Source: Roseovarius sp. (GTDB taxonomy: Bacteria; Pseudomonadota; Alphaproteobacteria; Rhodobacterales; Rhodobacteraceae). Taken from it: 64,000 nt of DNA. Below the pieces are notes generated by a model that was given only the letters and a program-made list of their open reading frames with translations, ran no database searches and was not told where the DNA came from. The position numbers and the translations under genes were made by a program. Below are positions 1,759 through 64,000 of the stretch, one piece after another. The stretch covers positions 52,962 to 116,961 of the forward strand of contig NZ_JALUXE010000033.1 of NCBI RefSeq assembly GCF_027019125.1, in the 5' to 3' direction. How positions within the stretch are numbered: the first letter of the stretch is position 1; each line of letters starts with the position of its first letter.

Positions 1759-3045
1759 ATGAACACACCCCTGCGCCTTGGCATCGCCGGATTGGGCACG
1801 GTCGGCACGGGTGTCGTGCGGATCATCCGGCAAAAGGCCGATCTTCTGGCCGCCCGCGCAGGTCGCCCCGTGGTCATCACCGCCGTTTCGGCGCGCACCC
1901 GCGACAAGGATCGCGGTGTCGCGCTCAGCGACTACGCCTGGGAGGATGATCCCGTTGTCCTCGCCAAACGCAATGATGTGGATGTGTTTGTCGAATTGAT
2001 GGGCGGGTCGGATGGGCCTGCCAAGGCCGCGACCGAGGCGGCGATTGCCGCGGGCAAGGATGTCGTCACCGCCAACAAGGCGATGCTCGCGCATCACGGT
2101 CAGGCGCTGGCCTTGGCCGCCGAAGCGGCTGGCCGCGTGATCCGCTTCGAGGCGGCCGTCGCGGGTGGCATCCCGGTCATCAAGGCGCTGACCGAAGGGC
2201 TGGCGGGCAATGACATCACCCGCGTCATGGGCGTGATGAACGGCACCTGCAACTATATCCTGACGCGCATGCAATCGGCAGGCCTGCCCTATGCGCAGGT
2301 CTTCGAGGAGGCCGCCAAACTTGGCTATCTCGAGGCGGACCCGACCCTTGATGTGGGCGGGATCGACGCGGGGCACAAGCTGGCGCTGCTCGCCTCCATC
2401 GCCTTTGGCTGCCAGGTCAATTTCGACGGTGTGACCCTCGAAGGCATCCAGAAAGTCACCATCGAGGATATCCGCCACGCGGCCGACATGGGCTATCGCA
2501 TCAAGCTCTTGGGCGTGGCGCAGATGACGGGGCGCGGGCTGGAACAGCGCATGTCTCCCTGCCTTGTGCCCGACACCAGCCCCCTCGGGCAACTGGAAGG
2601 TGGCACCAACATGGTCGTGCTCGAGGGCGACAATGTCGAACAGATCGTGCTGCGCGGCCCGGGTGCGGGCATGGGCCCCACGGCCAGCGCGGTCATGGGC
2701 GACGTGATGGACATCGCGCGCGGCTTCCGCCTGCCGACCTTTGGCCAACCCGCCGCCAGCCTCAACCGCTGCCAGACCGCGACCAGCGCCACACCGGCCC
2801 CCTATTACATGCGCATGTCGCTGATCGACAAACCCGGCGCCCTCGCCAAGGTCGCGACCATCCTCGGCGAGGCGGGAATTTCCATCGACCGGATGCGCCA
2901 GTATCGCCATGACGCCACCACAGCGCCGGTACTGATCGTGACGCACAAGACCACGCGCGACGCGCTCGACACTGCCCTGACCGGCATCGGACGCCTTGAC
3001 GTCCTGTCAGGAGAACCGGTGGCCCTGCGCATCGAAACCGTCTGA
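1759..3045 (+). CDS. hom: Homoserine dehydrogenase
   Basis: LGIAGLGTVGTGVVRII, VMNGTCNYILTRM, C-terminal ACT domain. Confidence 0.97.
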   Translation: MNTPLRLGIAGLGTVGTGVVRIIRQKADLLAARAGRPVVITAVSARTRDKDRGVALSDYAWEDDPVVLAKRNDVDVFVELMGGSDGPAKAATEAAIAAGKDVVTANKAMLAHHGQALALAAEAAGRVIRFEAAVAGGIPVIKALTEGLAGNDITRVMGVMNGTCNYILTRMQSAGLPYAQVFEEAAKLGYLEADPTLDVGGIDAGHKLALLASIAFGCQVNFDGVTLEGIQKVTIEDIRHAADMGYRIKLLGVAQMTGRGLEQRMSPCLVPDTSPLGQLEGGTNMVVLEGDNVEQIVLRGPGAGMGPTASAVMGDVMDIARGFRLPTFGQPAASLNRCQTATSATPAPYYMRMSLIDKPGALAKVATILGEAGISIDRMRQYRHDATTAPVLIVTHKTTRDALDTALTGIGRLDVLSGEPVALRIETV

Positions 3046-3124
3046 CGCGGCCCCGCCCGCCGGACTTGTGCGCCAGAGCGCGCGGCGCTAATGCTGATTT
3101 GACCCGATTTACAAGGACCATCCC

Positions 3125-4090
3125 ATGACCTCTGATACCGCCTTCAACGATCGCATGCTCTCGCTCGGCCTCGCGCGCGTGGCCGAACAGGCCGCCTTGG
3201 CCTGTGCTGACCTGATCGGGCGCGGCGATGAAAAGGCCGCCGATCAGGCCGCCGTGAACGCCATGCGCGAGCAGCTCAACATTCTGGCCATCAAGGGGGT
3301 CGTGGTGATCGGCGAGGGCGAGCGGGACGAGGCGCCGATGCTCTTCATCGGCGAAGAGGTGGGCACCGGCGGCGGCCCCGGCGTCGATATCGCACTTGAT
3401 CCGCTCGAAGGCACGACCCTGACCGCCAAGGCCATGCCCAATGCCCTGACCGTGATCGCCATGGCCCCGCGCGGCACGCTGTTGCACGCTCCCGACACCT
3501 ATATGGACAAGCTGGCCATCGGGCCGGGCTACCCTGAGAATGTCGTCTCTCTCGCCATGAGCCCGCGTGAGAGGGTCGAGGCGCTGGCGGCCGCGCGTGG
3601 CTGCCGCCCGTCCGAGATCACCGTCTGCGTGCTGGAGCGCCCGCGCCATCAGGAAATGATCGAGGAACTGCGCAGCACGGGGGCCGCCGTGTTCCTCATC
3701 CCCGACGGCGATGTGGCCGGCGTCATCCATTGCGCCGAGGCCGACCGCACCGGCATCGACATGTACATGGGCACGGGCGGCGCACCCGAGGGCGTGCTGG
3801 CGGCCTCTGCGCTCAAATGCATGGGCGGGCAGATGTGGGGCCGCCTCGTGTTCCGCAACGAGGATGAACGCGCCCGCGCCGCCAAGGCCGGGATCACCGA
3901 TTTCGACCGCATCTATGCGCGCGACGAGATGGTGACATCGGATGTGATCTTTGCCGCCACCGGCGTCACCGACGGCTCGATCCTCTCGGGCGTCAAACGC
4001 CGCCCCGGCTATGTCGAGACCGAGACCCTGCTGATGCGTTCGCGCACCGGCTCGGTGCGGCGGATGATCTATCGCAGCAAGCGGGACTGA
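3125..4090 (+). CDS. glpX: Class II fructose-1,6-bisphosphatase
   Basis: GEGERDEAPMLFIGEEVG, DPLEGTTLTAKA, GTGGAPEGVLAA. Confidence 0.97.
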   Translation: MTSDTAFNDRMLSLGLARVAEQAALACADLIGRGDEKAADQAAVNAMREQLNILAIKGVVVIGEGERDEAPMLFIGEEVGTGGGPGVDIALDPLEGTTLTAKAMPNALTVIAMAPRGTLLHAPDTYMDKLAIGPGYPENVVSLAMSPRERVEALAAARGCRPSEITVCVLERPRHQEMIEELRSTGAAVFLIPDGDVAGVIHCAEADRTGIDMYMGTGGAPEGVLAASALKCMGGQMWGRLVFRNEDERARAAKAGITDFDRIYARDEMVTSDVIFAATGVTDGSILSGVKRRPGYVETETLLMRSRTGSVRRMIYRSKRD

Positions 4091-4097
4091 GCACGGC

Positions 4098-4172
4098 ACG
4101 GGGGTGGGGGCGCTGCCCCCGTCCCGGGCCTGACCCGGGACTCCCCCGAGGTATTTCTCGCCAGATGAATGA
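4098..4172. repeat. GC-rich intergenic hairpin repeat (copy A)
   Basis: gggggcgctgcccccgtcccgggcctgacccgggactcccccgaggtatttctcgccagatgaatgag; matches inverted copy near 7287-7343. Confidence 0.6.
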
Positions 4173-4184
4173 GAGGAGGCGCGC

Positions 4185-5933
4185 ATGGGACCGGCCTTTC
4201 TCGGAGTGGAACACTCGCTCTCGGGGCGACGCTGGATCGGTCCGGGGGCCGAAGCCGATCGCTTGGCCGAAGCGATGGCGCAGGCCACCGCCCTGCCCCG
4301 ACCGCTCTGTCAGACGCTGGTCCGGCTGGGTGTGACAGAGGATGCCGCCGAGGCCTATCTCGCCCCCACCCTGCGCGATCTGCTGCCCGATCCGCGCAGC
4401 CTGCGCGACATGCAAGAGGCTGCGGCGCGGTTTCTGCGGGCGGTGCGGACCTCGGAGCGCATCGCCATCTTCGCCGATTACGATGTGGATGGCGGCACCT
4501 CTGCCGCGCTGCTGATCGACTGGCTGCGCCAGATGCAGGCCCCCGCGCCCACGCTCTATATCCCGGACCGGATCGACGAGGGCTATGGCCCCAACGTGCC
4601 CGCCATGTCCGATCTGGCCGCGCGCAACGATCTCATTGTCTGCGTCGATTGCGGCACCCTCAGCCATGAGGCGATTGCCGCCGCCAAGGGCGCGGATGTG
4701 GTGGTGCTCGATCACCACCTGGGCGGCGAGACGCTGCCGCCTGCCCTCGCCGTCGTCAATCCCAACCGGCAGGACGAGAGCGGCGATCTGGCCCATCTCT
4801 GCGCCGCCGGGGTGGTCTTTCTCATGCTGGTCGAGGCCGGGCGGCAATTGCGCGCGGCGGGCACGCAGGGGCCGGACCTGATGGCGATGCTCGATCTGGT
4901 GGCCCTGGCCACCGTCGCCGACGTGGCGCCTCTGATCGGCGTCAACCGCGCCTTCGTGCGCCAGGGCCTGCGCGTCATGGCCGCGCGCGCGCGCCCCGGT
5001 CTGGTGGCGCTGTCAGACGTGGCGCGTATGGACAGCGCGCCCAATGCCTATCACCTGGGCTTTCTTCTGGGGCCGCGCGTCAATGCCGGGGGCCGCATCG
5101 GCAAGGCGGACCTGGGCGCGCGCCTCTTGGCCTGTGATAACCCCGCCGAGGCCCGCGCCATGGCGGAACGCCTCGACCAGCTCAATTCCGAACGGCGCGA
5201 GGTCGAGACGCAGGTGCGCGATGCCGCCCTCGCCCAGGCTGAGGCGCGCGGCCTTGAGGCCCCTCTTGTCTGGGCGGCGGGCGAGGGGTGGCATCCCGGT
5301 GTCATGGGCATCGTCGCCAGCCGCCTCAAGGAACGCGCCAACCGCCCCGCCATCGTGATTGGGCTGGACGGCGACGAGGGCAAAGGCTCGGGCCGCTCGG
5401 TCTCGGGCGTCGATCTCGGGGCCGCCATTCAGCGACTGGCCAGCGAGGGGCTCTTGATCAAGGGCGGCGGACACAAGATGGCAGCGGGTCTCACCGTGGC
5501 GCGGGATCACCTCGAGGCTGCCATGGCGCGGCTCTCAGAGTTGCTCGCCAAACAGGGCGCGGGCGCGGGCGGCCCCGCCGATCTGCGGCTGGACGGTCTC
5601 CTGATGCCCGGTGCGGCAACGGTCGACCTGGTCGAGCGGATCGAGGCCGCCGGCCCCTTTGGCGCAGGCGCGCCCGGCCCCCGCTATGTCTTTCCCGATT
5701 GCCAGATCACCTTTGCCAAGGCGCTGAGCGGCGCGCATCTCAAGCTGCGCTTTGGCGATGGCATGGGCGCCAGTCTCGATGCCATCGCCTTTGGCGCGCT
5801 CGACGGGCCGCTGGGGCCCGCGTTACTGGCGCATGGCGGCGCGCGATTCCACCTTGCCGGACGGCTCGACATCAACAGTTGGGGCGGCAGACAGAGCGTG
5901 CAATTGCGCCTCGAAGACGCCGCTCCGGCCTGA
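4185..5933 (+). CDS. recJ: Single-stranded-DNA-specific exonuclease RecJ
   Basis: DHH-family motifs: IFADYDVDGGTSAALL, VVLDHHLGG, GGGHKMAAGLTV. Confidence 0.96.
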   Translation: MGPAFLGVEHSLSGRRWIGPGAEADRLAEAMAQATALPRPLCQTLVRLGVTEDAAEAYLAPTLRDLLPDPRSLRDMQEAAARFLRAVRTSERIAIFADYDVDGGTSAALLIDWLRQMQAPAPTLYIPDRIDEGYGPNVPAMSDLAARNDLIVCVDCGTLSHEAIAAAKGADVVVLDHHLGGETLPPALAVVNPNRQDESGDLAHLCAAGVVFLMLVEAGRQLRAAGTQGPDLMAMLDLVALATVADVAPLIGVNRAFVRQGLRVMAARARPGLVALSDVARMDSAPNAYHLGFLLGPRVNAGGRIGKADLGARLLACDNPAEARAMAERLDQLNSERREVETQVRDAALAQAEARGLEAPLVWAAGEGWHPGVMGIVASRLKERANRPAIVIGLDGDEGKGSGRSVSGVDLGAAIQRLASEGLLIKGGGHKMAAGLTVARDHLEAAMARLSELLAKQGAGAGGPADLRLDGLLMPGAATVDLVERIEAAGPFGAGAPGPRYVFPDCQITFAKALSGAHLKLRFGDGMGASLDAIAFGALDGPLGPALLAHGGARFHLAGRLDINSWGGRQSVQLRLEDAAPA

Positions 5934-6057
5934 AAATCCCCCTGTTCGACAGGCCCGCGCCCCGGAGCGTAAATTTCTGATTGCGGCGTGAAGTTTTTGC
6001 AAAATCCCTCTTGCGCCCCCCGCCGCTTTTGCCTAGTTACGCGTCACGCCAAGGCAT

Positions 6058-6132
6058 GGCCCGTTCGTCTATCGGTTAGGACGTCAGGTTTTCAACCTGA
6101 AAAGAGGGGTTCGACTCCCCTACGGGCTGCCA
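6058..6132 (+). tRNA. tRNA-Glu (anticodon TTC)
   Basis: ggcccgttcgtctatcggttaggacgtcaggttttcaacctgaaaagaggggttcgactcccctacgggctgcca; anticodon loop TTTTCAA, T-arm GGTTCGA, encoded CCA. Confidence 0.95.
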
Positions 6133-6340
6133 CTTTTCCACATCATCGAATTCTGCTCTTGTCGCCGTCGGCATCGTCGGGTCACGTTGTGATCGTGTGC
6201 CAGAAAGCACGCGCTTCGCAGATCGGAACGCCGCATCACCGCGTATCACCGTGATCCGACCACGTCGCGATCTTGCACAAGGCCCTCGGGATTGGATAGC
6301 TCTTGCTCAAGACCGCACGGACCAGAAAGCCCCGATCACG

Positions 6341-6703
6341 ATGCCACCTGCCGGCCCCCCCTCAGCCCTGATCGCTGCCGCCCTCCCCGAGGTGGCGCCG
6401 GGGCGGCGCGTGACCGTGGCAGGGCTGGTGCTGGTGCGCCAGCGTCCCGGCACCGCGCGCGGCGTGGTCTTTGTCACGCTCGAGGACGAGACCGGCACCG
6501 TCAATGTCGTGATCTGGCGCAAGGTGTTCGACCGCTTTCGCCGCGCGGTCATCGCCGGGCGAATGCTGCGGGTCACTGGCCGGGTCGAGCGGCAATCGGG
6601 TGTGACCCATGTCGTCGCCGAAGAGATCGAGGACATCTCGCCCCTGCTTGACCTTCTGGCCGATCCCGAAACCCCGCTTTCCCCACCGGATCAAACAGGC
6701 TAG
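6341..6703 (+). CDS. Stand-alone OB-fold protein homologous to the C-terminal end of DnaE2 error-prone polymerase (possible remnant)
   Basis: VTVAGLVLVRQRPGTARGVVFVTLEDETGTVNVVIWRKVFDRFRR resembles the DnaE2 tail; ORF could extend to 6197. Confidence 0.7.
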   Translation: MPPAGPPSALIAAALPEVAPGRRVTVAGLVLVRQRPGTARGVVFVTLEDETGTVNVVIWRKVFDRFRRAVIAGRMLRVTGRVERQSGVTHVVAEEIEDISPLLDLLADPETPLSPPDQTG

Positions 6704-50064: not shown

Positions 50065-51117
50065 TCAAGCGGCGTCGCGACGATTGGCCTTGAGCCGCGC
50101 GTTCACTGTGTCCACGATCCCCGCGAATTCCGACGACTCGATGCCCTGCTGTTCGGCGATGAGCTTCACGAGCATATCCACGCGTTCGATGCGGTCCGCC
50201 CCGCCTTCAATCGCGCGCGCGGCCGAGGACGGCTTGAGCAAGCCATTGGCGGCACTGGCATATTTGGCGAACGGAACGGCATCGTCGGCCTCTGCACCCA
50301 ACCGGCGCACAACCTCGTCAACGGTGCTGTAGATCTTTTCCGACAGCGCCACATCGCCATGCACCGCTTCTTTGATCGGGCGCGCGCCCTCGGGCAGGAC
50401 ACAGCGGTAATTGCCGGTAAGCAGCATGCTCCATTTGGCAAAGGGAACATAGATCGAGTCGAACACGCGCAGCTTGACCGGCACGTCCTTGCCATCGACC
50501 GTCACCGCATCAATCGCCGCCTCCAGATCACGCAGGATGCGGTTGTGGGCCTCATCCTCGAAAATCGCCGCCTTGAAATTGGTGGGCAGGCCGACATGCA
50601 GCGTATTGGCGCCATCCTCGGCCACACGATACGCCTGCGGGTCGGGGCTGCAGAGCGTGACTGTGCCGGGCTTGAACGCGGCCCATGCACCCGGGCAGGT
50701 ATAGGCCGCCTCAAGCTTCGACGTATCGAGGCCCGGCACCCGACGCAGATAGGGCAACGGCGGCATGTTCATGATCGAGAGGCACGGCGTGCCCGCCGCG
50801 GCAATGCGCCCCAAGAGGTCGACGATATTCTGGGCACAATACTGCGGCTCTGACATGGCAAGCGCCACCATGTCGTAATCGGCGGGATTCACATCCTCGG
50901 GTGCCAGAGCGTTGAGCGTGCCAGGCAGGTCATGCGAGCGGAACGAACGATGCTCTGCCTCGTCGCGCAGCTTGATGCGCACATCGGTGCCCTCGGAGTT
51001 GATGAGATCAGCCGTGGACTGGCGGCAGACAAGCGTCACATCCTGCCCGGCCATCAAAAGCTTGGTGCCAAGAAGAGAGCCGTAAGAGGCCCCAAGGATT
51101 ACGATGCGATATGCCAT
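50065..51117 (-). CDS. Ketopantoate reductase-like NAD(P)-binding protein
   Basis: IVILGASYGSLLGTKLLMAGQDVTLVCRQ Rossmann motif; PanE-like layout. Confidence 0.65.
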   Translation of the reverse strand: MAYRIVILGASYGSLLGTKLLMAGQDVTLVCRQSTADLINSEGTDVRIKLRDEAEHRSFRSHDLPGTLNALAPEDVNPADYDMVALAMSEPQYCAQNIVDLLGRIAAAGTPCLSIMNMPPLPYLRRVPGLDTSKLEAAYTCPGAWAAFKPGTVTLCSPDPQAYRVAEDGANTLHVGLPTNFKAAIFEDEAHNRILRDLEAAIDAVTVDGKDVPVKLRVFDSIYVPFAKWSMLLTGNYRCVLPEGARPIKEAVHGDVALSEKIYSTVDEVVRRLGAEADDAVPFAKYASAANGLLKPSSAARAIEGGADRIERVDMLVKLIAEQQGIESSEFAGIVDTVNARLKANRRDAA

Positions 51118-52713: not shown

Positions 52714-54225
52714 TTATTCCGCAGGCTTGGCCCGGCGCGGCCGCAGATACTTCAATGCGGGCATCAGGATCAGAATGATCGCCACGATCATGATCGGCGC
52801 CGAAATCGGGCGGCTGAAGAAGATCGACGGATCGCCAGAGGACAGCAGCAGCGATTGGCGCAGCGTCGGTTCGGCAATCGGGCCAAGCACGATGGCCAGC
52901 ACCGCGGGGGCCACCGGATAGTCGAACTTGCGCAGGAAGAACGCGCCAAAGCCGAAGATCAGCAGCAACCAGATGTCGAACATATCCTGCATGGCCGCAT
53001 AGCCACCGACCACCGAGAGCACGAAGATCAGCGGTGCCAGCACCGTGAAGGGCATGCGCAGCATCCAGATAAAGAGCGGGATGAAGGCAAGATTCACGAC
53101 CACGGCGAAGAAGTTGGACACGTAGAACGATCCGATCAGACCCCAGACGAAATCCGACTGTTCCACGAACAGGCGCGGGCCAGGGGTAAGCCCCCAAATC
53201 ACCATGCCGCCAAGCAGGATTGCCGTGGTGGGCGAGCCGGGGATACCCAAGGTCAGCATCGGCAACATGGAACCCGTCGAAGCCGAGTTGTTGGCTGCTT
53301 CCGGTGCCGCGACACCGCCGACATGTCCCTTGCCGAAATCATCGGGACGCTTCGAGATCATCTTGGAGACGCCATAAGACATGAGCGAGGCGGGTGTGGC
53401 CCCGGCGGCGGGCAGAACCCCGACGAAGAAGCCAAGGAACGAGCCGATGGACATGCCCTTCCAGCCCCGCTTGAAGGTGGTGCCGGTATCCTCGACGATG
53501 CCTTTGACAGAGATCTTTGCGTCACTCTTGCTGATCTCTCCCCGCGTGCTTTCGATCGTCCAGATCATTTCGCCGATGCCATAGACACCGATGGCCAGCA
53601 CAAGGAAGCTGATCCCGCCGAGGAAGCCGTTGAGATCAAAGAGCACGAGACGCGGTGCACCGGAAATCTGGTCGAACCCGACGGTGGCCAGCACCAGACC
53701 GAAGCAGATCGAGAACACCGTCTTTGGGATGTCATCGCCACCCAGACCGACAAACGTCGCGAATGCAAGGAGCATCAGTGCAAAGATTTCAGGCGGTCCA
53801 AAGCTCAGCGCGACCGTGGCCAGCAGGGGCGCAAAGCCGGTAAAGAGCACGTTGGACACGGTGCCGCCGACAAAGGATGCAATTGCTGCGGCCACGAGGG
53901 CCAGGCGTGCCTTGCCCTGCATGGCAAGCGGCCTGCCGTCAAAGGTCGTGGCCACCGCTGTTGACGCGCCGGGAATGCCGAGGGTGATTGATGAAATCGC
54001 CCCGCCATACATGGCGCCATAGTAGATCGCGGCCAGAAAGATGATCGCGGAGCCGGGCGGCACCAGAAAGGTGATCGGCAAAAGGATCGCCACCCCATTG
54101 ACAGATCCCAGCCCCGGCATAGCTCCGATAAAGAGACCAAGCGTGACCCCGATCAGGATAAGCAAAAGGTTAAGAGGTTGGATGGCGACCAGCATGCCGT
54201 CGCCGAGCAGAGATAGAATTTCCAT
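52714..54225 (-). CDS. tctA: Tripartite tricarboxylate transporter, large permease
   Basis: LFIGAMPGLGSVNGVAILLPITFLVPPGSAIIFLAAIYYGAMYGG. Confidence 0.95.
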   Translation of the reverse strand: MEILSLLGDGMLVAIQPLNLLLILIGVTLGLFIGAMPGLGSVNGVAILLPITFLVPPGSAIIFLAAIYYGAMYGGAISSITLGIPGASTAVATTFDGRPLAMQGKARLALVAAAIASFVGGTVSNVLFTGFAPLLATVALSFGPPEIFALMLLAFATFVGLGGDDIPKTVFSICFGLVLATVGFDQISGAPRLVLFDLNGFLGGISFLVLAIGVYGIGEMIWTIESTRGEISKSDAKISVKGIVEDTGTTFKRGWKGMSIGSFLGFFVGVLPAAGATPASLMSYGVSKMISKRPDDFGKGHVGGVAAPEAANNSASTGSMLPMLTLGIPGSPTTAILLGGMVIWGLTPGPRLFVEQSDFVWGLIGSFYVSNFFAVVVNLAFIPLFIWMLRMPFTVLAPLIFVLSVVGGYAAMQDMFDIWLLLIFGFGAFFLRKFDYPVAPAVLAIVLGPIAEPTLRQSLLLSSGDPSIFFSRPISAPIMIVAIILILMPALKYLRPRRAKPAE

Positions 54226-54263: not shown

Positions 54264-54767
54264 TCAGTAGATGATGTCGTACAGGACATTGAATACCGGC
54301 TCGGTGAAACTCATCCCAGTCGGCATGGTGATCTGCATCAGACCCTCGAAGAAAAAGAACAGTCCGAGGGGAAAGACGAGAACCATTGGCAAGGTCAGGG
54401 TCCAACTATGGCGACCCAGGACCTTGAGGTAATACAGCATGAAGACCGCAACCGCCCCATACATGGAGAGGATGTCGACCAAGGCGACGAACCCGACAAT
54501 CCCACCACCTACGAGAAGCAGGGTCTTGCGACCGAAATCGTCGAGCACCGGCTCGTCCGATTGCGAGGCCGGAGAGAGGCCCCGAATTGCGTTGAGCGCG
54601 ATGAACCCGGTCGAGATCAGCATGCCCAGCGAGAGCCAGAATGGCCAGAAGCCGCCTTGTGGTCCGGTCCCGGCGACGAACCCGATGCCGTTCGCCGTTG
54701 CCTTGTACATCAGATAGATGGAGAGGAGGGCCAGCACGCCCGCCGTCACTATTTCGCCAACCCGCAT
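54264..54767 (-). CDS. tctB: Tripartite tricarboxylate transporter, small permease
   Basis: Four-TM layout, GFVAGTGPQGGFWPFWLSLGMLISTG; between tctA and tctC. Confidence 0.92.
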   Translation of the reverse strand: MRVGEIVTAGVLALLSIYLMYKATANGIGFVAGTGPQGGFWPFWLSLGMLISTGFIALNAIRGLSPASQSDEPVLDDFGRKTLLLVGGGIVGFVALVDILSMYGAVAVFMLYYLKVLGRHSWTLTLPMVLVFPLGLFFFFEGLMQITMPTGMSFTEPVFNVLYDIIY

Positions 54768-54801: not shown

Positions 54802-55758
54802 TTACTTCATGCCTTCAAGAAGCTTGGTGTGGTTCTCGACCTGAAGCTGCCAGTAGGCGCGCTGCTCGTCGGCATTCATCCAAAGCGGCGAGAGCGATTC
54901 AGCTTCGAGGTAACCCTGCCACTCTTCCGAGTTGAAGATGTCTTCAAAGAGCTTCTGGTAATAGGCTGCGGCTTCATCCGACATGCCCGGCGCGCCGACA
55001 ACGGCCCGCTGGTTGTAGTAGCTGAAGTCGTGGCCCTTTTCCTTGAGCGTCGGAATGCCCGGATAGGCGCTCATCTGCTCGTCCGAGAAGACCAGGAGCG
55101 GACGCACGTCACCCGACTGGAAGAAACCGCGCGCTTCGGCGGGGTTGTTCACAGTGGCCATGATCTGCTTGCCTGCCAGAGCCGCCGCAACCGCGCCGCC
55201 ACCGTCAAAGGGGATGTACTTGGTCTTGAGGTCGTAGGCCCCGTTCACATAGGCAAAGACGATGCTGTCTTCCTGGCCCGTGCCGGTGCCGCCGGTGACA
55301 TACTCACCATTCGCCGCCTTGACCGCGTCGACCCACTGCTCGAAGGTCTCGATACCGCTGTCCTTGTGAACCCAGAGCGCGAAGGGGTCGACGCCCATCA
55401 TCGCAATCGGGGTGAAGGTCTGGATGTCGATACCCAGATCCGGCTGACGGATCGGTGTCGAGAAGAACGAGTTGAGCGTCACCAGAATGGTGTGATCGGG
55501 ATCATTGGTGGTGTTGAGCCAGATCAGCGCCTCTGCACCAGAGCCGCCGCCCTTGTTGTTGGGGATCAGAGGACGGTTCGTCATGTCCTTCTTCTCGGCC
55601 ACCGACTGAATAAAGCGGGCGATCTGGTCTGCACCGCCGCCAGGACCTGCCATGATGACAAAGTCGATGGGCTTGCGCGGCTGCCATTCAGCCATTGCCG
55701 CAGGGGCCGAAAGCCCGAGCGCGGCGATGCCGATTGCTAACGTCTTCAGAATATTCAT
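54802..55758 (-). CDS. tctC: Tripartite tricarboxylate transporter substrate-binding protein
   Basis: Signal peptide; PIDFVIMAGPGGGADQIARFIQ. Confidence 0.94.
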   Translation of the reverse strand: MNILKTLAIGIAALGLSAPAAMAEWQPRKPIDFVIMAGPGGGADQIARFIQSVAEKKDMTNRPLIPNNKGGGSGAEALIWLNTTNDPDHTILVTLNSFFSTPIRQPDLGIDIQTFTPIAMMGVDPFALWVHKDSGIETFEQWVDAVKAANGEYVTGGTGTGQEDSIVFAYVNGAYDLKTKYIPFDGGGAVAAALAGKQIMATVNNPAEARGFFQSGDVRPLLVFSDEQMSAYPGIPTLKEKGHDFSYYNQRAVVGAPGMSDEAAAYYQKLFEDIFNSEEWQGYLEAESLSPLWMNADEQRAYWQLQVENHTKLLEGMK

Positions 55759-55924
55759 GTCTTCCTCCCGTTGATGGCCTGTCAATTTGGCCAGATGCGT
55801 TAGAGGTCCTGACAGCCCTTGACCCTCCTCGGTCATGTTTTGCGGGCTTATCCGAACCAGATTTCAGTTTGCTGTCGTCCTCCTTAATCTGTCCACAAGT
55901 TTTCCGTCCCTCGTGCTCGCGGCC

Positions 55925-56788
55925 TCAATGCACCATGACGACGGGGATTTTCGCCTCTGCGACAATCGTCGCGGAATTGCCGCCCAAAAGCGATTCCCGT
56001 TCATAACTCTCGTGGTAAGCACCCATAATCAGCATGTTTGCCCCCACTTCGGTGCATTTGTCCAAAAGCGTCCGGCCTACGTTTCCGGTGCGCTCAAAGG
56101 AATTGATCTGCGATGTAATCCCGCGCTGCGCGAGGTAATGGCGGAACTCTTCGGGCGTGGCGGTGTGTTCGATTCGCCCTGCCGTCAGGATCGTCACCTG
56201 ATCCGCGCCCTCGATCAGAGGCATCGCCATCGCCACCGCGCGCGACGCCTCGAGCGAGCCGTTCCAGCCAATCGCCACATGGCTGCCGATGTCGGGAGAT
56301 ACCTGATCGGTATCGGGGCAGACCAGCACCGGACGCCCCGACGTGAAGAGCGCCGATTTCAGCGTGTTGTAGCCCAGGTTCTCTTCCCGGCTCGGCTTGG
56401 CCACGCAGATCAGATCAGCCAGCCGCCCGTAATGGCGCACGACCTCAACCTGCTTGCCTTCGTATTCGCGGAAGGCCGCGGTAGGCTTGCCGATGGCGCG
56501 CGGCTCGACGCTGATGCCGTGACGCTTGGCATCTTCAAGGAACTTGTCGCGCATATAGCCCTGTTCGTAATCTGCCCGCTTCTTGCTGGCCTCTTCCAAC
56601 TGCGCGCGCAGGAAAGCGGGGATCACCACGCCATAGGGCATCATGTCTTCGGCCTTGGGGTGACAGTGCACCACCCGCACATGGGCGTCGTAGCGCTTGG
56701 CGAGGGCTGCGGCATGGGCGAAGAGGATCGGCCCCCGCCCGTCTTCGCGAACCGGCATCATGATGGTGTGAAGTGTGCTCTTGCCCAT
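55925..56788 (-). CDS. Universal stress protein UspA family
   Basis: HVAIGWNGSLEASRAVAMAMPLIEGADQVTILTAG; ANMLIMGAYHESYERESLLGGNSATIV. Confidence 0.9.
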   Translation of the reverse strand: MGKSTLHTIMMPVREDGRGPILFAHAAALAKRYDAHVRVVHCHPKAEDMMPYGVVIPAFLRAQLEEASKKRADYEQGYMRDKFLEDAKRHGISVEPRAIGKPTAAFREYEGKQVEVVRHYGRLADLICVAKPSREENLGYNTLKSALFTSGRPVLVCPDTDQVSPDIGSHVAIGWNGSLEASRAVAMAMPLIEGADQVTILTAGRIEHTATPEEFRHYLAQRGITSQINSFERTGNVGRTLLDKCTEVGANMLIMGAYHESYERESLLGGNSATIVAEAKIPVVMVH

Positions 56789-56989
56789 GATCAATAGAAC
56801 CCGTTGGGAACGCCTGCGGCGTTGGTGGATGGGAATCGCGCCGGAGAGCTTTGGCAGGCAACCGGCGCGGTCGCGAAGGTGCAGTATGTCAGACCTTGAC
56901 CCGGTGGGCGACCGACGAACTGCCGATGCCCTCTGTTGGCTTGGGATTGGTCAAGGTGTGCCATCATGCGCTCCCATTGCTCTGGTGTA

Positions 56990-57907
56990 TCAGCCTCCGA
57001 GGGTGGCCCCCGGCGCAAGCCCGACCGATGCGGCCCATTCGGCAGCGGGCATCTTGGCACCGCCTGCCGGACGAACCCTCTTGATCAGGACACGCCCGCC
57101 TACACATTGCACCGAGACACCTGCATCAGAAACCTCGCGTACGCGGCCCGATATGCCGTCCCCCGGCACGAGCGCGCAGTCATAGACATCGACCTCGGCC
57201 CCGTTCAGCGTGGTCCAGGCCCCCGGTGCCGGATTGGTACCCCGAATGAGATCGTAGACCTGTTTGACCGGACGATGCCATTCGATGCGTGCGTGAGTGC
57301 GGGTGCAGCGGCGCTCGTAGGTCGCTTGGCTCTCGTCCGGAACGATGCGCGGCGGATTGCCCGCGCGGAAGAGATCGCAGACCGTCAACACGCTATCGAC
57401 CGCATGCGGATAGATCTTCTTGAAGTAGAGGTCGATCACCGTGTCATCAGGGCCGATCTCGCATTCCCACTGCAGGAGGCTGTCGCCCTCGTCGAGGCCA
57501 TCCGTAGGGTAAAACCAGGAGTAGCCCGATTTCGTCGACCCCATGATGATCGGCCAATTGACCGCAGAGGGACCGCGATGCAGTGGCAGCAGGGAGGGAT
57601 GAAAGCAGATCGAGCCATGGGTCGGCGTATCGCGCGCGGCCTCGGGCACAAAGACGTTGACGAAGGCCATCACCATCAGATCGGCCTTATGTCCCGCCAG
57701 CACCTCGAGCGAGGCGGGATCATCGAAATTTGCGGGCTGATGGACCGGCAGGCCCTTTTCCAGCGCGAGTTCCTTGATCGGATCGACGGGTTTGCCGTCC
57801 TTGTCAGGTTCACAATAGACCGCGACGACTTCGTCTGTCCCGGTGTCGAGCAACTTGGCCAGCACATCTTTGCCAAAGGCCTGTTGCCCCATCACTATCA
57901 GTCGCAT
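56990..57907 (-). CDS. Formyltransferase family protein resembling the 10-formyl-THF hydrolase domain of ALDH1L1
   Basis: GSICFHPSLLPLHRGPSAVNW; DGLDEGDSLLQWECEIGPDDTVIDLYFKKIYPHAV; IRGTNPAPGAWT. Confidence 0.85.
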   Translation of the reverse strand: MRLIVMGQQAFGKDVLAKLLDTGTDEVVAVYCEPDKDGKPVDPIKELALEKGLPVHQPANFDDPASLEVLAGHKADLMVMAFVNVFVPEAARDTPTHGSICFHPSLLPLHRGPSAVNWPIIMGSTKSGYSWFYPTDGLDEGDSLLQWECEIGPDDTVIDLYFKKIYPHAVDSVLTVCDLFRAGNPPRIVPDESQATYERRCTRTHARIEWHRPVKQVYDLIRGTNPAPGAWTTLNGAEVDVYDCALVPGDGISGRVREVSDAGVSVQCVGGRVLIKRVRPAGGAKMPAAEWAASVGLAPGATLGG

Positions 57908-57963
57908 TCTCTCCTCCCGTTGTGCGGTTGGCCGGTCTGCGCCGGCCTTGCCGTCACCTTTGT

Positions 57964-59235
57964 TTATTCGGCGGCTTGCTTGGCCGTACCCACGGCGCCG
58001 GATTCCATGATCCGGGCCAGATCCTCGCTGGAGTAGCCCAGCACGTCGCGCAGGATTTCTTCGGTGTGCTCACCCAAGAGCGGCGAACGTGTCACCTCGA
58101 CCGGGCTGTCGCTCAGCTTGATCGGGCATCCCACCGAGGTATAGCGACCGCGCGTCGGGTGATCGACCTCGACGATGGTGCCGGTCTTGCGCAGCCCTTC
58201 ATCCTCCATGATTTCCTTGGTGGACAGGATCGGACCAACGGGGATGTCATGCGGGTTGCAGATATCCATGACCTCGAACTTGGTCTTGGTCATCGTCCAT
58301 TGTTCGATCCGTTCGAAGATCGCATCGAGCTTGTCCAAGCGTTCGGCCGGGGTCGCATAGCCGGGGGCGGTTTTCCAATCCGGCTCGCCGATCACGTCGC
58401 AAACCTTTTCCCAGACGGCAGCCTGCGTGATGAAATAGGTATAGGCGTTGGGGTCGGTTTCCCAGCCCTTGCACTTGAGGATGCGGCCCGGCTGACCGCC
58501 GCCCGAGTCGTTGCCCGCGCGCGGCGTCGAGTCGCCAAAGGGAATGCCCGCCCCGTATTGCGAGTATTCGGTGAGCGGTCCTGCCGCCAGGCGCTGCTGA
58601 TCGCGCAGCTTGACGCGGCAGAGGTTGATCACCCCGTCCTGCATCGGTGCCAGCACCTTTTGCCCACGGCCAGAACGCTCGCGTTGATAGAGCGCGGTGA
58701 CGATGCCAAGCGCGAGATGAAGGCCCGTGCCGCTATCGCCGATCTGCGCGCCGGTCACGAGCGGCGGACCATCCAGAAAGCCGGTGGTCGAGGCCGCACC
58801 ACCCGCGCATTGCGCGACGTTCTCGTAGACCTTGCAATCCTCATACTTGCCGGGGCCAAACCCCTTGACCGAAGCCATGATGATGCGCGGGTTGATTTCC
58901 TGAATCCGCTCCCAGCTAAAGCCCATCCGGTCCAAGGCACCCGGTGCGAAATTCTCGACCAGCACGTCGCAGGTTTCGATCAGGCGCGTCAGCACCTCCT
59001 TGCCGGCTTCGTTCTTGGGGTTGAGCTCGATCGAGCGCTTGTTGTGGTTGAGCATCGTGAAATAGAGGCTGTCCGCGCCAGGCACATCCACGAGTTGCTT
59101 GCGGGTGGCGTCGCCCACACCGGGACGCTCCACCTTGATCACATCCGCGCCAAACCACGCCAAGAGTTGCGTGCAGGTCGGGCCCGATTGCACATGGGTA
59201 AAGTCGAGGATCTTGACGCCTTCAAGAGCTTTCAT
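57964..59235 (-). CDS. frc: Formyl-CoA:oxalate CoA-transferase (class III)
   Basis: [55 protein letters not shown]; next to oxc. Confidence 0.95.
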
Positions 59236-59296
59236 AGGGTTCTCCATCTTCTGAGCTGCGTGGGCTGGTTGCCCACGCCCCAGTTTCGTTCTGTGT

Positions 59297-61069
59297 TCAG
59301 TCTTTGCGCGCCTGCGGATAGAGGCGCTGCGCCACCACCGATTGCGGGTTGAGGTTGCCGATATTGCCGCTTTCCCTGCCCGCTGCCGGGTCAATGATTG
59401 CGTTGATGAGCGTGGGCTTGCCACTCTCAAGAGCCTCGTAAACGGCCTTGCGCAGCTCATCCGGCGAGCGGGCGATGACACCCACGCCGCCAAAGGCCTC
59501 GATCATCATGTCATACCGCGAGCCCTTGACAAAAACCGTGGTCGCAGGATCGTCGCCGCCGCCCCAGTTCTCGCCATCCCCGCGATAGATACCGTCATTG
59601 TTGAAGACGACCGTGCAAATGGGCAGGTTGTAGCGGCACACGGTCTCGATCTCCATGCCGCAGAACCCGAAGGCGCTGTCGCCCTCGACCGCCAGCACGC
59701 GCTTGCCGGTCTCGATGGCGGCCGCGATGGCCGATCCCATGCCGATCCCCATCACCCCCCAGGTGCCAACGTCGATCCGGTGGCGCGGCTTGTGAATGTT
59801 CACGATCGAGCGGCACTGATCGAGCGTATTGGCCCCCTCGTTGACGAGGATGGTGTCGGGATGGTCGTTGATCGCATCCTTTATGACGCCAAGCGCCCCG
59901 TGATAATCCATCGGATCGTTGTTGTTGCGCAGCTTGGTCTCCATCTTGGCCATATTGGCCGTGGCCTTGGCGTTCACCGCGTCGAGCCAATCCTTGGGCG
60001 GTGCGATCCCGGCCCCGTCCATCGCCTTGAGCAGCGCCTCGCAGCAGGAACCGACATCGCCCACGATGGGGGCTGCGATCTCGACGTTCGAGTCCATTTC
60101 CTCGGCCTCGATGTCCATCTGGACAAAGCGCTTGGCCCCCGGTTCGCCCCACTGCTTGCCCTTGCCGTGACTGAGCAGCCAGTTGATCCGGGCCCCCATC
60201 ATGATGACCACATCCGAGTCCTTGAGCACCATCGAGCGCGCGGCCGCGGCACATTGCGGGTGCGTATCGGGCAAGAGCCCCTTGGCCATCGACATCGGCA
60301 GGAACGGATAGCCGGATTTCTCGACCAGCTCGCGGATCAGATCGTCGGACTGGTCATAGGCCGCGCCCTTGCCGATCACGATCAGCGGGCGCTTGGCCCC
60401 TTTCATCACCTCGATGGCACGATCAATCGCCGATTTCGCGGGGATCTGCCGTTGTGCAGGCTCGATCACCTTGACGAGCGAGCGTGCGCCCTCGGCTGCA
60501 TCCATCACCTGCCCCAGCATCGCGCCGGGAATGTCGAGATAAACCCCACCGGGCCGCCCGGAGATGGCCGAGCGGATGGCGCGGGCCACGGCGATGCCGA
60601 TGTCCTGCGCATAGGTCAGCCGGTATGCCGCCTTGCAGAACGGCTTGGCCATGGCCAACTGGTCCATCTCTTCGTAGTCACCCTGCGCCAGGTCGACGAT
60701 TTCACGCTCTGACGAGCCGGAAATCAGGATCATCGGCCAGCAGTTCGTGGTGGCATTGGCCAGAGCCGTCAGCCCGTTAATGAAACCGGGGGCCGAGACG
60801 GTCATGCACACGCCGGGCATCTTGGTCAGGAAGCCCGCCACCGAGGCCGCATAGCCCGCATGCTGCTCGTGGCGGAAGGAAATCACCCGCATCCCCTGCG
60901 CTTGCGCATAGCGGCCCAGGTCCGTGATCGGAATGCCGGGGACGTTGTAGATGGTCTCAATACCGTTGAGTTTGAGTGCATCAATCAGCAGGTGGAACCC
61001 ATCGGTGAGATTCTCGATATCCCCTTCAGGTGCCTTGCTATGTGCTGCGTGTGCGCTGGCGACTGCCAT
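59297..61069 (-). CDS. oxc: Oxalyl-CoA decarboxylase
   Basis: [68 protein letters not shown]. Confidence 0.96.
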
Positions 61070-61130: not shown

Positions 61131-61835
61131 TCATCCTGTGTTGGCCGCGGCGTTGCGGGTCAATTCGAGCCTGCCCCAAGTCTTGCGGATATGCTGATGC
61201 AACTGCATCGTATGCTCGCGCACCCGTTCGGCGGCCTCATCGGCATCGCGACGCTCCAGCGCCTCGATGATTTCGGCGTGATCGACGACCGACCGCTTGA
61301 CGCGATCCCCCTCCCACATCGACCGCAGCCGCACCGCCTGAATGTGCAGAAACAATCCTTCCGCCATGCTCTTGAGCAAACCACAATGCGAAATCTCGAG
61401 GATATGCATGTGGAATTTCAGATTGTCGTCGGAGTATTCAGCAATCCGCGTTGCCGACAACTCGTCATTGTATTTGGAAGCTATCTTGCGCAGCGTCGCG
61501 ATTTCGCTGTCGCTCGCGCTGTCTACCGCGAGCCGCGCCGCCATGCTCTCGAGCGCCGCCCAAGCCACGATCATCTCGAGGATTTCCTCAAGGCTCTTGC
61601 GCTGCACATAGACGCCCTTACGCGGAACCACCGTCACCAGCCCATCCGCCTCGAGCCGCGCAATCGCATCCCGCAGGGGTGTGCGCGAGATGTTCAGCTG
61701 CTCAGCCAGCGACCGCTCATCCAACCGCAGGTCGGCATTCTGGTCGTAGATGTCCATCTCCAGGATCGCCTCACGCAAACGGTCATAGACATGATCCTTG
61801 AGCGTGAATTTCGACGCGATCGGGCGTAGCTTCAT
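61131..61835 (-). CDS. GntR family (FCD domain) regulator
   Basis: DHVYDRLREAILEMDIYDQNADLRLDERSLAEQLNISRTPLRDAIARLEADGLVTVVPRKGVYV. Confidence 0.94.
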   Translation of the reverse strand: MKLRPIASKFTLKDHVYDRLREAILEMDIYDQNADLRLDERSLAEQLNISRTPLRDAIARLEADGLVTVVPRKGVYVQRKSLEEILEMIVAWAALESMAARLAVDSASDSEIATLRKIASKYNDELSATRIAEYSDDNLKFHMHILEISHCGLLKSMAEGLFLHIQAVRLRSMWEGDRVKRSVVDHAEIIEALERRDADEAAERVREHTMQLHQHIRKTWGRLELTRNAAANTG

Positions 61836-61884
61836 GTCATCCCTCCAATGCGCCCGCGCCCTGTGGCGCCCGTGCTCATTTCGT

Positions 61885-61894
61885 TGGTATACCA
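61885..61894. promoter_or_regulatory. Candidate GntR operator TGGTATACCA
   Basis: Perfect palindrome 50 bp upstream of GntR start. Confidence 0.5.
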
Positions 61895-62258
61895 TAGACC
61901 AGCATATCAGACCGGGCAAATCGTTTTTTCAAAATTCGTCGCCGCACGTGCAGCATGACGTCAACCGATCGCCATCGACAGCCTTGTTATTCAAGCACAA
62001 TTTCGATTCGGAAGATCGGCGCGCTCAATCCGCCACCCACACCAACAAATTCGGATTTAAATAATTGTTTTATAATACTTTTTATGGATTTACGGAACAA
62101 CTCTCAGGCCGAGCAGAGCCGCACCGAATCGCCACATGCATGTTGCAACGCGGCATTTCATCTCGCCTGTATGATGCACTTTTACGCCACCCGGCGCATC
62201 GCCTTGAAACTTGCGGGCGGGGCCTGAAATTTGCCGGGTTGATGGTAAAAATCAACTG

Positions 62259-62318: not shown

Positions 62319-62858
62319 ATGCTTATCCGTGCGGCCGACAGCGTGCTCGTGATCATCGACATGCAGGAGCGCCTCGTCCCCGCCATGCAGGCCCCCGCAC
62401 GCACGATTCGCAATGCCCGCACCCTGATGGCCTGCGCACATGAAATGGGTGTGCCCGTGGTAATGACCGAGCAGTATCCCGCCGGTCTTGGACAGACCGT
62501 GCCCGATCTCAAGCCGGCGCCAGACACCGTGGTCCTGAGCAAAATGCATTTTTCCTGCATGGAAGACGGCGATTTCGCGGCGCATTTCCGGGGATTGGGG
62601 CGCAAGCAGGCGGTGCTGGCCGGCATGGAGGCGCATGTTTGCGTCTTGCAAACGGCGGCCAGTCTGATCGAAGAGGGCTATGAAGTCTTTGTCGTATCAG
62701 ACGCCACCGCCTCGCGCACGCTCGAGAGCGAACGGGCCTGCATTGCCCGGCTCAGCGCCGCGGGCGCAGGCATCGCCACAACCGAAATGGTCGTATTCGA
62801 ATGGTTGGGCCGGGCGGGAACCCCGGCCTTTAAGAGACTATTGCCACTGATCAAATGA
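62319..62858 (+). CDS. Isochorismatase-family cysteine hydrolase
   Basis: VLVIIDMQERLVPAM; VLAGMEAHVCVLQTAASLIEEGYEVFVVSDAT. Confidence 0.9.
   Translation: MLIRAADSVLVIIDMQERLVPAMQAPARTIRNARTLMACAHEMGVPVVMTEQYPAGLGQTVPDLKPAPDTVVLSKMHFSCMEDGDFAAHFRGLGRKQAVLAGMEAHVCVLQTAASLIEEGYEVFVVSDATASRTLESERACIARLSAAGAGIATTEMVVFEWLGRAGTPAFKRLLPLIK

Positions 62859-62892: not shown

Positions 62893-64000
<1,108 letters not shown>

Follow-up and report, generated by a model that had tools for sequence, protein, structure and literature searches.

A formyltransferase family paired with oxalate catabolism genes is a candidate link between formyl-CoA and the folate pool

In the published scheme of oxalate degradation by oxalyl-CoA decarboxylase (Oxc) and formyl-CoA:oxalate CoA-transferase (Frc), formyl-CoA only exchanges its CoA with oxalate, giving formate (PMC10192776). 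The oxalate operons of E. coli and Acetobacter also carry an accessory enzyme beside oxc and frc, YfdE, an acetyl-CoA:oxalate CoA-transferase that was proposed as a primer in E. coli (PMC3720670). The formyltransferase domains of FDH (ALDH1L1) and HypX pass a formyl group to a pantetheine thiol, which in HypX is that of CoA itself (PMC6802093, PMC12134894), and the HypX chemistry between formyl-THF and CoA serves CO synthesis (PMC6802093). Our searches of the open-access literature, which may miss descriptions published elsewhere, returned no formyltransferase of oxalate catabolism and no formyl-CoA:THF enzyme other than the HypX half-reaction. Here we describe a formyltransferase family of known fold and known type of chemistry, in which the association with oxalate catabolism appears to be new and one residue of the active site is unusual.

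The window, that is, the whole stretch of 64,000 nucleotides of Roseovarius sp. DNA that was analysed, holds an operon in the order gntR-oxc-frc-FT-usp-tctCBA, all on the minus strand, where FT stands for a stand-alone FDH-hydrolase-like formyltransferase encoded between frc and usp. The first gene encodes a GntR/FCD regulator (61131..61919, exact start uncertain). It is followed by oxc (59297..61069) and frc (57964..59247, starting at 59247 or 59235), which were identified by curated family models (TIGR03254, 946 bits against a cut-off of 739, and TIGR03253, 700 bits against a cut-off of 504, respectively). The FT frame is open from ATG to stop (57907-56990, 305 aa). It starts 56 nt after the frc stop, with a ribosome-binding-like GGGAGGAG just 5' of the ATG (57911..57918, minus strand). 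Downstream are genes for a universal stress protein (usp, 55925..56794), a tctC-like solute receptor (54802..55836, start uncertain), a tctB-like protein (54264..54767) and a tctA-like permease (52714..54225). Most relatives carry fhs (formate-THF ligase) between FT and usp. The lineage of the window is without an operon fhs, of which no remnant was found either: the gap of about 185 nt that separates FT from usp aligns with the closest strain only. Divergent from the operon, on the plus strand, are genes for an isochorismatase-family hydrolase (62319..62858) and a sucC paralogue (succinate-CoA ligase beta, 62893..63999) that runs off the contig end. On the minus strand 1.6 kb past the tct genes, a protein that weakly resembles ketopantoate reductase, with a match below the Pfam cut-off, is encoded at 50065-51117. 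The initial annotation had placed FT within an oxalate operon and had read three motifs in it. The certified oxc and frc neighbours, in a context that is kept in relatives, agree with the placement, and HPSLLPLHRGPSAVNW, DGLDEGDSLLQWECEIGPDDTV and IRGTNPAPGAWT were all found.

FT had further been judged closer to the ALDH1L1 (FDH) hydrolase domain than to Met-tRNA formyltransferase (Fmt), and this view was upheld by PDB matches, the Fmt model score, the active site and the tree. Pfam detected Formyl_trans_N and Formyl_trans_C and no other domain. The best PDB sequence matches were FDH hydrolase domains (186 bits, 6e-54; 125 bits for Fmt), and the FDH hydrolase domain was also preferred by profile (289 vs 223 for Fmt). 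Against the Fmt equivalog TIGR00460, FT scored 128 bits, below the cut-off of 201.5. The top Foldseek match of the FT AlphaFold model (pLDDT 94.6) was FDH (4qpd; E 6e-36, TM 0.88, 33% identity), although the TM to Fmt was equally high (0.9) and fold alone does not separate FDH from Fmt. HypX and ArnA were excluded from the final tree, as their long branches had made placement unreliable in an earlier tree. FT and FDH were split together from five Fmt sequences with 100/100 support; within this grouping FDH falls inside FT, and FT as one clade against FDH had an AU p of 0.15. The basic loop PAGRGKK, shared by E. coli Fmt and the Fmt of the Roseovarius genome, is missing from FT, whose loop resembles that of FDH in being shorter and lacking the basic stretch. 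At the level of sequence, these comparisons confirm that FT is a relative of the FDH hydrolase domain and not a second Fmt.

FT is like the FDH hydrolase domain (4qpd, 1s3i) in fold and in catalytic and pterin residues, so that an "ALDH1L1-like" description holds for this domain; it does not extend to ALDH1L1 as a whole, which, unlike the FT of an oxalate operon, has carrier-protein (ACP-like) and aldehyde-dehydrogenase domains and Ile104. HypX shares with FT the superfamily, the His and Asp residues and the absence of the catalytic Asn, but is only 19% identical in its N-terminal domain, has an additional enoyl-CoA-hydratase domain and is linked to hydrogenase rather than oxalate genes. Fmt has the same two-domain architecture (31-33% identity), whereas FT lacks its catalytic Asn. 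PurU, a formyl-THF deformylase, differs in its N-terminal ACT domain and again in the catalytic Asn, both absent from FT. YfdE belongs to an unrelated family with a different reaction.

The Roseovarius genome has a separate fmt adjoining def, and its other formyltransferase-type genes are a purN-like gene and an NRPS formylation domain; purU was not found in this genome. On G000:C27 (L084), a glycosyltransferase-like gene adjoins an NRPS that begins with a formyltransferase-like domain at its N-terminus. One housekeeping fhs, followed by folD, lies on another contig. In a public plasmid record (CP031587.1) the FT gene is labelled fmt_2 and adjoins oxc, frc_5 and fhs_2. This database label is a mislabel that hides the gene.

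By alignment, His103, Ser105, Arg111, Asp139 and Tyr197 of FT match the catalytic and product-release residues His106, Ser108, Arg114, Asp142 and Tyr200 of FDH, Phe86 corresponds to Phe89, which stacks on the pterin, and FT retains most residues of the folate site (roles of the FDH residues as described in PMC4388273). The codons of the catalytic His103 and Asp139 are at 57599..57601 and 57491..57493, respectively (minus strand). Two positions before the His, E. coli Fmt (Asn109), ArnA and PurU have Asn, FDH has Ile104 and HypX has Val; FT has a cysteine, Cys101 (codon 57605..57607, minus strand). The initial annotation, which saw the likeness to FDH, overlooked the Cys where FDH has Ile and Fmt has Asn. 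This position matters in FDH, where the I104N variant keeps <10% of hydrolase activity (PMC4388273). Cys101 is invariant in 81/81 close FT members, while distant members mostly have Gln, with Cys in three of them. The sampled Cys-type members form one branch (20 rows, support 98/92), and the change from Gln to Cys therefore probably happened once.

Conservation of the gene and its context was far from chance among 80 relatives of 74-98% identity. In these closest loci, frc was directly upstream of FT wherever this could be tested (75/75), and fhs was directly downstream in 54/80. We also drew 337 alphaproteobacterial genomes evenly, in which the FT family is cleanly set off from Fmt by a gap in scores (280 vs 138 bits). 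FT was present in 27 genomes and frc over its cut-off in 29; both occurred in 23, where 2.3 were expected (Fisher p 3e-26, a value that ignores shared ancestry). The two genes were adjacent in 14 of these 23 genomes and unlinked, on other contigs or not seen adjacent in the other 9. Counted by family (162 families, read off group codes), 16 of the 18 with FT have frc. Four FT genomes had no frc above the cut-off: in one of them frc is truncated, and two others carry frc-like genes scoring about 445 bits. Because the co-occurrence extends across the 337 genomes, the FT-frc link does not hinge on close relatives. An oxc-frc-frc-FT arrangement (FT 43% identical) was further found in three genomes of one genus outside Alphaproteobacteria, which from its gene content we take to be betaproteobacteria-like. 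Some FT-family members were seen away from frc (L126, L133, L135, L139, L143). The recurrent company of frc, oxc and fhs supports the part of the earlier proposal that ties FT to formyl-CoA and 10-formyl-THF; that proposal had named formyl-CoA:THF formyltransferase, formyl-CoA hydrolase and formyl-THF hydrolase as possible activities.

In several operons oxc is swapped for another TPP enzyme, nearest to 2-hydroxyacyl-CoA lyase, while frc and FT, the invariable genes of these operons, stay. The 2-hydroxyacyl-CoA lyase family also makes or handles formyl-CoA. The replacing enzyme is about 25% identical to Oxc and was noted in 17 loci whose frc operons are otherwise similar. A formate dehydrogenase alpha gene adjoins some operons. 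Of 49 testable loci, 29 have a sucC or sucD gene in divergent orientation to the operon, counting the sucC start of the window, and relatives such as L173:1-2046 show the same orientation for a sucC (sucCD) paralogue accompanied by an isochorismatase-like gene. Succinyl-CoA for the activation of oxalate may come from these sucCD genes; no gene is assigned to EC 2.8.3.2 (PMC10192776). The contig of the window ends inside sucC (G000:C33) and another contig of the assembly, G000:C28, starts inside a second sucC copy (L176, L177), probably an assembly break at the duplicated gene. Other arrangements were also observed. In locus L031, a Cys-type and a Gln-type FT paralogue, 47% identical, flank a formate-THF ligase gene downstream of oxc-frc (FT-fhs-FT at 2629-3540, 3600-5270 and 5484-6431). 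Three Gln-type members away from frc (L135, L142, L144) adjoin, by eye, a pterin-carbinolamine dehydratase-like gene. A record titled Oceanobacillus sp. HTM 045 (Bacillota; L028) carries a typical alphaproteobacterial oxalate operon and is probably mislabelled or contaminated.

We propose, with confidence that is about evenly balanced and drawn from sequence and gene context, that FT is a 10-formyl-THF:CoA formyltransferase connecting the formyl-CoA that Oxc produces with the folate pool (formyl-CoA + THF <=> CoA + 10-formyl-THF). A folate pocket and a thiol-type active site, among neighbours that make or use formyl-CoA and a neighbour that makes 10-formyl-THF, are most simply reconciled with exchange of the formyl group between formyl-CoA and THF. 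THF would sit in the FDH-type pterin pocket, the formyl group would be polarised by His103 and Asp139, and the thiol partner would be the pantetheine arm of CoA, by analogy with HypX and the FDH domain pair. We infer CoA as this partner from the characterised relatives without the Asn, FDH and HypX (two cases only), both of which use a phosphopantetheine thiol. Cys101 may tune the chemistry or briefly hold the formyl group. On general thermochemical grounds formyl-CoA is the higher-energy compound, and transfer from it to THF is downhill. During growth on oxalate, the net direction would likely be from formyl-CoA to 10-formyl-THF with release of CoA. Oxalate carbon could in this way enter one-carbon metabolism while sparing the ATP that formate-THF ligase spends, and formate from Frc would be handled by Fhs or formate dehydrogenase. 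If formyl-CoA is drained to folate in this way, CoA is lost from the Frc cycle and another CoA donor is needed; we would guess at succinyl-CoA, via the neighbouring sucCD. Several points count against this assignment. Formate is already converted to 10-formyl-THF by the operon Fhs, the nearest precedents in biochemistry transfer formyl from formyl-THF to the thiol, and some family members sit away from frc. A more specific version, which we consider doubtful, has Cys101 as an S-formyl carrier in a new enzyme activity, a ping-pong formyl-CoA:tetrahydrofolate formyltransferase (two thioesters and THF) that feeds oxalate formyl groups into the one-carbon metabolism of aerobic oxalotrophs and saves the ATP used by formate-THF ligase.

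The main competing explanation, somewhat unlikely in our estimation, is that FT is a thiol-dependent hydrolase acting either on formyl-CoA (EC 3.1.2.10) or on 10-formyl-THF, freeing formate together with CoA or THF. In the presence of a thiol, 10-formyl-THF is hydrolysed by the FDH domain on its own (PMC4388273), the Roseovarius genome is without PurU, and formyl-CoA hydrolase, which would have the same substrate and step as the candidate FT, has been without a gene and hence a sequence since 1963 (PMC10192776). Linkage of FT to frc would also suit removal of formyl-CoA, but the pterin pocket that FT conserves would then be needless. Hydrolysis of 10-formyl-THF beside the fhs of 54/80 operons would amount to a futile, ATP-burning cycle. 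Moreover, Ile104, which is required for full FDH hydrolase activity, is Cys or Gln in the FT family.

A less probable alternative is that FT acts as a primer, with fhs and FT turning formate, at the expense of ATP, into formyl-CoA that starts or replenishes the Frc/Oxc cycle. This would be the same enzyme as in our preferred reading working in the opposite net direction, and our confidences in the two overlap. It has the direction of HypX, from formyl-THF to CoA, as its precedent (PMC6802093, PMC12134894), and is consistent with the fhs in the operon and with the lack of a YfdE homologue in any locus examined. However, the pattern expected if FT replaced YfdE was not seen: no yfdE was found in frc loci without FT, nor in FT loci. 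The sucCD genes beside many operons could prime the cycle via succinyl-CoA instead, and a net flux from formyl-THF to formyl-CoA would be uphill.

It is improbable that FT formylates another acceptor, such as an amine, a sugar nucleotide or an acyl-carrier protein. ArnA and sugar formyltransferases do use the same fold, but FT lacks the Asn that amine formyltransferases use in catalysis, the conserved operon has no sugar or ACP gene, and co-occurrence with frc is strong. A second Met-tRNA formyltransferase, as the annotation of CP031587.1 has it and as the similarly close Fmt fold might suggest, is very improbable and was rejected on the TIGR00460 score, the missing basic loop, the replaced Asn and the tree, with the real fmt lying beside def in the same genome.

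A conserved, widespread and mislabelled gene between frc and fhs is a concrete candidate for a second fate of formyl-CoA. If FT is a hydrolase, it would fill the gene gap of EC 3.1.2.10. If our preferred assignment as a formyltransferase between CoA and THF is true, FT would be a stand-alone formyl-CoA enzyme useful for synthetic formate-assimilation pathways, and oxalate degradation, which is common in marine and plant-associated bacteria, would be connected to folate one-carbon metabolism.
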